From Halodesulfurarchaeum formicicum (GTDB taxonomy: Archaea; Halobacteriota; Halobacteria; Halobacteriales; Halobacteriaceae): 64,000 nt of DNA. A program made the position numbers and the translations under genes. The DNA is taken from positions 310,001 to 374,000 of the forward strand of contig NZ_CP016804.1 in the NCBI RefSeq assembly GCF_001886955.1. The letters run 5' to 3'. Each line of letters starts with the position of its first letter. Within the stretch, counting starts at the first letter, position 1. Positions 2,169 through 4,204 of this stretch are shown here, piece by piece. Under the pieces are notes generated by a model. The model did no database searches. It was not told where the DNA came from and was given only the letters and a program-made list of their open reading frames with translations.

Positions 2169-3086
2169 ATGACTCTCGGTCCCGACGCCACGGTCTATCT
2201 CCTCGCGTTCGTTCCGGCGGTCATCTGGGGGTTCTCTCCCGTGCTCGACAAGCGCGGGATGTCCCTTTCGGGGACCGCACTCCAGGCCTCGCTGACAGTG
2301 GTCGTCGTGGACCTCACGCTTTTTGTCCTAGCGTTGCTCGTGTTCCGCGGCCCGGCCCTGCTTGCCGGGCTCGATCCGGCTGTGGCGGGGCTCTTTCTCT
2401 TCGCCGGCATGACTGGAACGGCCCTGGGTCGGCTGGCCATCTTCGTCGGTGTCGACCGGGTGGGGGCGAGCATCAACAGCGCCGTCGTCAGCGCCCGCCC
2501 GCTGTTCGCGACGGCCCTCGCTTTCGGACTGCTCGGCGAACCGGTCTCGCTCGCGACCGGCGTGGGGATCGTCGTTCTCGTCGCGGGCCTGGCGATTCTC
2601 AGCCTCTCGAAGGGCGGTGACATCACGGGTTGGGAGACCCGTGATCTGGCCTACCCGCTCGCCTCGGGCACGCTCTTTGCCTTCGGGAACGTGCTCCGAC
2701 GGCTGGGGCTTGGAACCGGCGGCGCGGACGTGCTGCAGGCCGTCGCGCTCAACGAGGCCGGGGCCCTGCTCGTCTTTCTGGGGTATGCCGCGGTCAGTGG
2801 GACGGCCGGCTTCCGGTCGGCAGAGCGCCGTTCCTACCTCTATTTCGCCGGGAGTGGTGTCCTCACTGCCGTCGCCCTGCTCTCGATGTTCGGGGCGCTC
2901 GCGCTTCCGGCCGGGCGAGTGGCCATCGTGGAGTCGTTGGCCTCGACGGCCCCGCTTTTCACCACCGTCTTCGCCTATTTCTTCCTCAAGGACCTCGAAC
3001 GGGTCACGCGGGGGATCGTCCTGGGTGCGTTGCTCGTGGTGATCGGGGTGGTGTTCGTGACGGTCGAACCCGGGCTTTTCTTGTGA
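2169..3086 (+). CDS. EamA/DMT-family permease
   Basis: A 305-residue protein with about ten membrane helices arranged as two EamA repeats (roughly residues 8-145 and 160-300). It belongs to the drug/metabolite transporter superfamily, whose members move amino acids, nucleotide sugars or other metabolites across the cytoplasmic membrane. The first helix contains the typical PAVIWGFSPV segment and the second repeat ends with a hydrophobic GVVFVTVEPG segment. The substrate cannot be inferred. The start is an ATG; the stop lies just before the tRNA-derived repeat array. Confidence 0.88.
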   Translation: MTLGPDATVYLLAFVPAVIWGFSPVLDKRGMSLSGTALQASLTVVVVDLTLFVLALLVFRGPALLAGLDPAVAGLFLFAGMTGTALGRLAIFVGVDRVGASINSAVVSARPLFATALAFGLLGEPVSLATGVGIVVLVAGLAILSLSKGGDITGWETRDLAYPLASGTLFAFGNVLRRLGLGTGGADVLQAVALNEAGALLVFLGYAAVSGTAGFRSAERRSYLYFAGSGVLTAVALLSMFGALALPAGRVAIVESLASTAPLFTTVFAYFFLKDLERVTRGIVLGALLVVIGVVFVTVEPGLFL

Positions 3087-3089
3087 CTA

Positions 3090-3173
3090 GGCGGCTGCTG
3101 GCGGGGATTTGAACCGAAATCAGCCGTGCTCGCTCCGCTGCGCGCGCCTGATAGGGTTCAAATCCCAGCCGCC
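3090..3173. repeat. array copy A, inverted repeat
   Basis: The left arm (3090-3114) reads GGCGGCTG, then CTGGCGGG, then GATTTGAACC. The right arm (3154-3173) is the complement of GGCGGCTGGGATTTGAACCC. The arms pair except for the extra segment in the left arm, which is the part matching the tRNA acceptor region. The loop differs from those of copies C and D. Confidence 0.75.
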
Positions 3174-3185
3174 CTCATCAGTCGA

Positions 3186-3229
3186 GTTCACGGCTCGCGA
3201 CACAGCAAGCTGGTCGCTCGCCGGTGAAC
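3186..3229. repeat. hairpin between copies A and B
   Basis: The ends GTTCAC and GTGAAC pair, and inside them GCGAC pairs with GTCGC around the loop ACAGCAAGCTG. The inner part CGCGACACAGCAAGCTGGTC recurs in the hairpin at 3616-3659, although the outer stems differ in sequence. Conserved pairing with changed bases suggests that the fold, not only the sequence, has been kept. Confidence 0.7.
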
Positions 3230-3241
3230 GTCTCGGAGAAG

Positions 3242-3341
3242 TGCGCTGGCGGGGATTTGAACCAGACCTTCACAGCCGATAGCGGTCTTTTCCCCAAGTT
3301 TTTGCGAGGGGCTGCGGAGCAGCCCCTCGGAAAAAGTGGGG
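3242..3341. repeat. array copy B with a long hairpin
   Basis: Bases 3242-3263 match the last 22 bases of the tRNA-Gly gene. The usual inverted partner is missing. Instead, 3305-3329 form a perfect 11-bp stem with a 3-base loop (CGAGGGGCTGC, GGA, GCAGCCCCTCG), extended by the near-complementary flanks CCCCAAGTTTTT and AAAAAGTGGGG. In the direction of the tRNA transcript this could act as a terminator-like structure. Confidence 0.7.
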
Positions 3342-3402
3342 CTCACGGGTCGTCCCTCCCCGTTCGCCGTATCGAGGCGCTCGCTCAGCTCGCGCCTCGC
3401 TG

Positions 3403-3470
3403 TGCGCTGGCGGGGATTTGAACCACGGTCACTTCGCTGCGCTCGTTCCCTGATTCAAATCCCAGCCGCA
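3403..3470. repeat. array copy C, inverted repeat
   Basis: The left arm (3403-3424) and right arm (3453-3470) pair imperfectly around a 28-base centre. Together with the bases that follow, this copy is identical to copy D over about 79 bases except for one C/T difference. That points to a recent duplication or to conversion between the copies. Confidence 0.8.
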
Positions 3471-3483
3471 TTCACGACCGCAA

Positions 3484-3522
3484 ATCGAACCGAGCGACAC
3501 CTGCGGGTCGCTCGGTGTCGAT
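3484..3522. repeat. hairpin between copies C and D
   Basis: ATCGA and CCGAGCGAC pair with GTCGCTCGG and the closing TCGAT, with one unpaired base between the two stem segments. The loop is ACCTGCGG. It occupies the same place relative to the tRNA-end copies as the hairpins at 3186 and 3616 but has a different sequence. Confidence 0.7.
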
Positions 3523-3534
3523 GTAATTGAGAAA

Positions 3535-3602
3535 TGCGCTGGCGGGGATTTGAACCACGGTCACTTCGCTGCGCTCGTTCCCTGATTCAAATCCCAGCCG
3601 CA
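3535..3602. repeat. array copy D, inverted repeat
   Basis: This is the near-identical partner of copy C, with arms at 3535-3556 and 3585-3602. The preceding bases GAGAA also precede the tRNA copy at 3672 and copy B, so the duplicated unit extends beyond the tRNA end itself. Confidence 0.8.
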
Positions 3603-3615
3603 TTTACGACCGCGA

Positions 3616-3659
3616 TTCTACCTCTCGCGACACAGCAAGCTGGTCGCTCGAGGGTAGAA
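3616..3659. repeat. hairpin directly downstream of tRNA-Gly
   Basis: TTCTACC and GGTAGAA form the outer stem and GCGAC/GTCGC the inner stem around ACAGCAAGCTG. On the tRNA strand it is the first structure after the mature tRNA 3' end, 12 bases away. It may help 3' processing or termination; this is inference. Confidence 0.7.
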
Positions 3660-3671
3660 GTCAATGAGAAA

Positions 3672-3742
3672 TGCGCTGGCGGGGATTTGAACCCCGGTTG
3701 TGACCATGGCAAGGTCACGTGATACCACTACACTACCAGCGC
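3672..3742 (-). tRNA. tRNA-Gly(GCC)
   Basis: Read on the minus strand, the gene begins GCGCTGG and ends CCAGCGC plus discriminator A, a perfect 7-bp acceptor stem. The D-arm is GTGTAGTGGTATCAC. The anticodon arm TGACC-TTGCCAT-GGTCA carries anticodon GCC, which reads GGC and GGT. The T-arm CGGGG-TTCAAAT-CCCCG is complete. There is no intron and no encoded CCA. The gene is 71 bases long. Its last 22 bases are the source of the repeats that follow it downstream. Confidence 0.96.
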
Positions 3743-3799
3743 AGGCCTTGCAACTGACTCTGAGTGAGCCATGGGAAAAACCCTTTCGAATCGAGGGGC

Positions 3800-3991
3800 T
3801 CACTCTCCGTCGCTTCGCTCCGTTTGCAACCGTTCGACGGTCCGCTCCAGGTCCTCGAGCTCCGCTTCGAGCTCGTCGATCCGCTCCTCGTCGACGTTGT
3901 CCCCGGTGAGCATGCGTTTCAGAATGACGAGCAGGCCGACGATCACCACGAGTGGCAGGACAAAGAGGAGCAGGATGATCAGCAGTTCCAT
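3800..3991 (-). CDS. small membrane protein with a coiled-coil tail, 63 residues
   Basis: The chosen start is the ATG that places one long hydrophobic helix (about residues 2-25, rich in Leu, Ile and Val) at the N-terminus. After KRMLTGDNV comes an acidic heptad-patterned helix (about residues 35-57) that probably forms a coiled coil in the cytoplasm. This is a PspB-like layout, but no family is certain. The frame also extends upstream to an ATG at 4135, but that extra part looks non-coding. Confidence 0.7.
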   Translation of the reverse strand: MELLIILLLFVLPLVVIVGLLVILKRMLTGDNVDEERIDELEAELEDLERTVERLQTERSDGE

Positions 3992-4167
3992 CCCGCCGGG
4001 AACCTGGAGGGGGAGCATATGAACATGTTTGTGTTCCAACCACATACCTCGTTCGGCGGCGAGTGCCCGTCCCGGACGGGACCCAGGATTTCGACCGGCC
4101 CAAAACACCCCGAAACGTCCGAAAACGTACGTCAAACCGACGCATACTCGCGGATTGAAACGCCATG

Positions 4168-4177
4168 CTTATATGGG
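4168..4177 (+). promoter_or_regulatory. TATA box of the ribosomal protein operon
   Basis: GCTTATATGG, preceded by a purine-rich BRE-like TGAAACGCC, is the clearest promoter upstream of the long plus-strand gene cluster. With the usual spacing, transcription would start near 4198, some 33 bases before the SPOUT gene and about 7 bases before a short upstream ORF. Confidence 0.65.
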
Positions 4178-4204
4178 CGAGTCGAAAAAGATGCCTACAG
4201 TCTC

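Follow-up and report, generated by a model that had tools for sequence, protein, structure and literature searches.

The window analyzed here, a stretch of 64,000 nucleotides from Halodesulfurarchaeum formicicum (NZ_CP016804.1, positions 310,001 to 374,000), contains a tRNA gene that is followed by several further copies of its own 3′ end. The question raised by this locus is what these copies are, and the original prediction offered three answers: attachment-site remnants of integrating elements, an array produced by slippage or recombination, or structured RNAs processed from the tRNA transcript. Positions without further label are those of the window.

Architecture of the tRNA-Gly(GCC) Array

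The gene for tRNA-Gly(GCC) lies on the minus strand at 3671..3743 (ARAGORN; Rfam tRNA, 65.9 bits), and its tail, running from the T-loop to the discriminator at 3672-3692, ends the gene with the 21 nt GTTCAAATCCCCGCCAGCGCA. As had been predicted, this tail is found four more times downstream. On the same strand, a spacer hairpin at 3616..3659, recognized from sequence and fold, leads from the tRNA to tail hairpin 1 (3535..3599), whose 3′ arm is a perfect tail copy (3535-3555, 21/21) and whose 5′ arm has its core at 3586-3595. A second spacer hairpin (3484..3522, minus strand), also present in the congener G002, stands ahead of tail hairpin 2 (3403..3467, minus strand), with its tail copy at 3403-3423 (21/21) and its 5′ arm core at 3454-3463. 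Tail copy 3 (3242..3262, minus strand, 21/21) has no matching 5′ arm and is preceded by a different, terminator-like inverted repeat within unit 3 (3293..3341, minus strand), which is flanked by T and A runs. A further spacer hairpin (3187..3228, minus strand), recognized from sequence, precedes the distal tail hairpin 4 (3094..3170, minus strand), which carries a less exact tail copy (3094-3114, 18/21) and a 5′ arm core at 3157-3166.

The inverted partner that the original prediction had assigned to three of the copies is GGGATTTGAA on the minus strand, and it accompanies tail copies 1, 2, and 4 only. The hairpins said to separate the copies are present between the units, and the near-identity reported for two copies, there called C and D, extends across 84 nt at 96%. 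Together, these units take up the whole gap between the tRNA and a convergent gene ending at 3086, and the minus-strand fold of the array is much more stable than that of shuffled sequences (z = -8.4). Few units score as a tRNA gene or pseudogene, at about 22 bits against a curated cut-off of 29, and thus they do not qualify as cloverleafs.

The inverted repeat at 3293-3341 represents a recurring composite element, in which CCCACTTTTT and CAAAAACTTGGGGAAAAA enclose a GC-rich inverted repeat. It is also seen behind tRNA-Gly(tcc), Gly(ccc), Ser(cga), and Leu(caa) of the same genome and behind Gly(gcc) and Pro(tgg) of genome G164, two distant genera in all, often where tail hairpins are absent.

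Tail Hairpins Behind Haloarchaeal tRNA Genes

The array is not peculiar to tRNA-Gly(GCC). At about half of the tRNA genes in the 2.09-Mb H. formicicum genome, the gene's own tail recurs one to five times downstream and essentially never upstream. A strict tail filter retained 32 tRNAs. With one mismatch at most allowed, these have 19 downstream copies and 0 upstream copies, compared with 0.15 expected for the tail of another tRNA, and chance is therefore excluded as their source. The intron-containing tRNA-Trp, which tRNA finders miss, proved on direct reading of the sequence to have a unit as well.

Similar proportions are observed in three distant haloarchaeal genomes, where a tail hairpin or acceptor copy stands behind 24/44 tRNA genes in H. 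formicicum, 23/43 in Haloarcula rara (L112), and 22/40 in Haloferax denitrificans (L149), the latter two having been retrieved tRNA by tRNA. Copies of the acceptor end alone (12 nt, at most one mismatch) follow 20, 23, and 21 genes, respectively, compared with 0, 0, and 3 upstream and 0, 1, and 0 for the acceptor end of another tRNA. A unit of about 95-160 nt typically consists of a spacer, usually with its own hairpin, and the tail hairpin; first units of arrays measure 93-377 nt (median 128) and later ones 97-161 nt. Whether a given tRNA has an array differs among genomes, and about half of the tRNAs are without one, which indicates that the array is not essential for tRNA maturation.

The original prediction called for the core and its inverted partner to be sought in other haloarchaea, and there they were readily found. 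Of 145 Halobacteria, 103 contain the strict pattern GGGATTTGAA-(25-55 nt)-GTTCAAATCCC, while the reversed control occurs in none. A slightly looser pattern is present in 34 of 43 Halobacteria. All 15 members of the Haloferax genus group have it as well, and it is absent from all 204 other genomes of the phylum. In a collection of 85,000 species, the matches listed (at least 80 loci) include 77 with haloarchaeal titles, two of these 77 being titled merely "Euryarchaeota archaeon"; the remaining three of those listed are two from Nitrosocosmicus and one from an "uncultured bacterium". Nearly all of the listed matches follow a tRNA encoded on the same strand at a distance of 30-240 nt, and they usually carry its acceptor sequence as well. 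The strict pattern was found in no viral contig.

The uncultured bacterium (L111, 3655-3853) has a single unit resembling a tail hairpin behind tRNA-Asp, with a 28-nt exact tail copy, a GGGATTTGAA arm, and terminator-like hairpins on both sides. The two Nitrosocosmicus loci (L115, L165) show T-loop hairpins with a tRNA-like tail, and no tRNA gene was detected nearby.

A literature search that covered open-access papers found no description of such arrays. Partial tRNA copies in haloarchaea are mentioned there solely in the context of prophages (PMC3119063; PMC3623002). The tail hairpins appear to form a class-wide and so far undescribed family of tRNA-linked RNA structures.

Matching of Arm and Tail

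In each tail hairpin, the 3′ strand is a copy of the host tRNA 3′ end from G53 to the discriminator, and the 5′ strand is complementary to the T-loop region of that tRNA. Pairing of the arm falls mostly on T-loop positions 54-63. For position 57, arms were picked without reference to the tail base and each tRNA gene was given one vote. Genes with A57 have U in the arm in 30 of 30 cases, and genes with G57 have C in 15 of 15 (p = 3e-12). Counted per unit, the combinations are A-U 173, G-C 23, A.C 4, and G.U 4. Where the T-loop is unusual, as in tRNA-His and tRNA-Pro(cgg) or in Gly(ccc), Thr(ggt), and Lys(ttt) of G164, the arms are correspondingly unusual. The original prediction would have read copies confined to this locus, free of paired changes, and untranscribed as a local accident; the copies proved to be widespread and the arms to covary with the tails, an outcome that favors a real structure. 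To judge from this architecture and covariation, the tail hairpins are a real, class-wide, and tRNA-specific family.

The acceptor part of the tail copy behaves differently. It is usually exact, yet its pairing with the arm is weak (14% v 5%) and it is mostly unpaired, so that a helix along the whole acceptor stem was rejected. The exact acceptor half in tRNA-proximal units is beyond what hairpin folding alone explains.

In a recurrent variant of the tail copy, the T-loop is altered (GTTCACAATCC, GTTCACACTC) while the acceptor part matches exactly or almost exactly; this variant is seen at tRNA-Phe of H. formicicum (L056), at Phe (L265) and Thr(tgt) (L273) of G164, and at Thr(cgt) of G165 (L291). 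By eye, tandem GA resembling that of K-turns is also visible in inner and spacer hairpins.

The Folding Strand

Two kinds of observation bear on whether the hairpin forms in RNA or DNA. At arm positions, departures of the G.U type exceed those of the A.C type per opportunity, the absolute counts leaning toward pairing since the arms were chosen by complementarity. Among 1 × 1 mismatches inside helices, 64 are G.U and 36 are A.C (p = 0.007, a value inflated by kinship among the sequences, as are the p-values of the strand tests in general). In addition, of 178 units, 153 have a sense strand that folds more stably than the antisense strand, with a mean difference of -4.7 kcal/mol compared with -1.9 in shuffled controls. 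Because G.U is favored over A.C and the sense strand folds better, the evidence points to a single-stranded hairpin in the sense orientation, most simply in RNA. A single-stranded DNA hairpin would likewise tolerate G.T over A.C.

Gain, Loss, and Exchange of Units

At the same tRNA, two congeners differ in the number and order of units as well as in their spacers and inner hairpins, and the inner hairpins change independently of the spacers. Within a single genome, an identical inner hairpin (27/27 nt) is found at Lys, Arg(ccg), and Leu(tag), and another (39/39 nt) at Ser(tga) and Pro(tgg). At loci that share inner hairpins, the arm still fits the T-loop of each host tRNA, including the switch between A57 and G57. 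Units have also been duplicated inside arrays, as at tRNA-Ser(tga) and tRNA-Gly. In arrays that contain both matching and non-matching acceptor halves, the matching ones come first in 16 of 18 cases, compared with 7.7 expected by shuffling, and distal hairpins keep the T-loop match and lose the acceptor match. The tRNA-Arg(tct) of H. formicicum differs from its own copies, which agree with the tail found in other haloarchaea; these copies were therefore inherited and not constantly rewritten. The suggestion that the array arose by slippage or recombination holds insofar as units are duplicated, exchanged, and lost, but slippage alone fails to explain arms that match the tRNA.

A natural control for integration is provided by tRNA-Arg(tcg). 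In H. formicicum, this tRNA has no array nearby, and its unit is found about 55 kb away, next to a phage-integrase gene (Pfam PF00589), whereas in a congener the unit directly follows the tRNA. An element of about 55 kb seems to have inserted between this tRNA and the array that belongs to it, at a core, CCTGCAACGCCCA, that consists of the acceptor part only and includes no T-loop hairpin. The position of the unit in the congener indicates that the array predates the integrated element. The stretch in question (G000:C1 1166485-1221436; loci L055, L251) has the tyrosine-recombinase gene at its far end.

Known Systems and Competing Explanations

The only close parallel found in this analysis is one locus of E. 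coli K-12, tyrT. At tyrT/tyrV (L312), the repeats end in an exact 19-nt tail copy (19/19), and each tyrT repeat contains a 10-nt stretch, GGGGAAGGAT, that reads as complementary to ATCCTTCCCC of the tail copy; a variant with a one-base G.T change stands in the tyrT-tyrV spacer. This putative arm is the present reading of the sequence and not a known published feature. The annotated RttR RNA begins 8 nt downstream of tyrV and stops at the final base of the first tail copy. In architecture, the haloarchaeal array is of the rtT type, with tandem units behind the tRNA that each end in a copy of its own 3′ end. The differences are that E. coli has one such locus whereas about half of the tRNA genes are involved across Halobacteria, and that the E. 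coli unit is about 178 nt long, has other inner hairpins, and encodes CCA in its tail. A cmscan of 2900-4200 up to E = 5 returned no match to RtT (Rfam RF00391), and the relation between the two is one of analogy, not homology. Functional RNA can also come from a tRNA trailer without an array: 3′ETS-leuZ serves as a sponge by pairing to small RNAs. The likeness to the haloarchaeal arrays would lie in the predicted function of the trailer RNA, and the difference in that 3′ETS-leuZ has neither a copy of its own tail nor tandem units.

The explanation preferred here, at about even confidence, is that the array is one member of a class-wide set of haloarchaeal tRNA-trailer hairpins that yield rtT-like RNAs by tRNA 3′ processing. 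Transcription from the tRNA promoter would read through into the array, and the sense transcript would fold into the hairpins. If E. coli tyrT/RttR, where the annotated RNA ends exactly at the tail copy, is a guide, the tRNA 3′-processing machinery may cut behind each tail copy and release one small hairpin RNA per unit, which might then serve, for instance, as a regulator or a decoy. Of the parts of this proposal, the RNA form has the better support, and the release and the task of the RNA are guesses. Accordingly, of the three options in the original prediction, structured RNA from the tRNA transcript has the best support, though of an indirect kind (arm-to-tail covariation, G.U over A.C, sense orientation only, and the RttR parallel), and its processing would follow by analogy. 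In Haloferax mediterranei, about a dozen small RNAs verified by RNA-seq lie in gaps adjoining tRNA genes, on either strand (PMC5852579); when these were placed on arrays by coordinates in 15 genomes of the genus, none fitted.

A rather unlikely alternative is that the units are self-spreading DNA cassettes, which would land at the tRNA tail and recombine at the arm and tail folded as single-stranded DNA; insertion would be integron-like or target-duplicating, and the hairpin would serve mobility, not the cell. In integrons, the end of each attC cassette forms an imperfect hairpin, in which the 3′ arm is conserved and the inner part varies, and cassettes are gained, lost, and reordered. The haloarchaeal units share these traits, but their arms vary with the host tRNA and they carry no genes. 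The cassette explanation accommodates the differences between congeners in how many units a given tRNA has and in the order and content of these units, the identical inner hairpins at different tRNAs, the exact and exclusively downstream tail copies, and the proximal acceptor matches lost distally, which fit insertion at the tRNA end. However, both arms match the recipient tRNA, and an imported cassette would not bring such arms. The absence of the strict pattern from viral contigs also speaks against cassettes, as does the apparently fixed orientation of the inner hairpin in the units read, and no link between arrays and a recombinase was made. A casposon- or CRISPR-like target duplication is improbable, as the arms match the recipient tRNA too. 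It is doubtful that tRNA genes act as landing pads where hairpin modules are inserted or exchanged and both arms are then rewritten to the host tail by an undescribed templated process. Equally doubtful is a local by-product, in which short T-loop repeats behind the tRNA undergo tandem duplication and gene conversion with one another and hairpins are retained only to keep stray tails from competing with tRNA folding. Duplicated units at tRNA-Ser(tga) and tRNA-Gly fit such an origin, and a distal T-loop match without an acceptor match is what duplication from the tRNA would give; on the other hand, spacer and inner families are common to different tRNAs and distant genera, the feature is class-wide and absent from the 204 other genomes of the phylum, and the acceptor part, which is the more probable competitor, is for the most part left unpaired.

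It is slightly more doubtful still that the hairpins, with a pyrimidine tract (YTTCTC) behind tRNA genes, are transcription terminators or attenuators. Sequence rich in T and followed by C often comes after the tails, YTTCTC is common, and intergenic terminators in Haloferax volcanii are T stretches ending in C, with one tested hairpin terminating as well (PMC7237163). Against this, T runs near tRNAs are the same with and without arrays, T4-T6 is not enriched at array tRNAs, and a terminator needs neither the tRNA's own tail nor a tRNA-specific arm. Attachment-site remnants of integrated viruses or plasmids, the remaining option of the original prediction, are very improbable and largely refuted by tRNA-Arg(tcg). 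Archaeal integrases do use tRNA 3′ ends, and a remnant likewise has a direct repeat of the tRNA 3′ end downstream, though at element distance, without an arm hairpin, and not in short arrays (PMC8371274). The genome itself offers a genuine scar at tRNA-Arg(tcg), but its acceptor-only core lacks a hairpin, and the element displaced an array unit that was already there. Since the element split the tRNA from its array at a different core, integration scars are an unlikely origin of arrays; a spacing of about 100-160 nt, with no gene inside the units, and class-wide hairpin arms also fit scars poorly. Two further candidates were set aside: guide RNAs for T-loop modification, as no C/D boxes were seen by eye, and a bulge-helix-bulge splicing motif, as the helix between the bulges has about 10 bp and not 4 (PMC7714728).

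Implications

If the trailer-hairpin reading is correct, the Halobacteria as a class carry a large and so far overlooked set of structured elements that correspond one-to-one with tRNA genes. These elements occur in genetically tractable genera and have a single-locus parallel in E. coli, which would make the purpose of tail repeats and the processing of tRNA trailers in haloarchaea testable, along with the spread of inner modules while the arms stay matched to the tRNA. Annotation would benefit too, as the arrays generate spurious short ORFs and degenerate tRNA calls. Reading the tRNA-Gly(GCC) array in antisense yields short ORFs, for example MRWRGFEPRSLRCARSLIQIPAA (3224-3722, plus strand), and small annotated haloarchaeal proteins that resemble such ORFs may be spurious.
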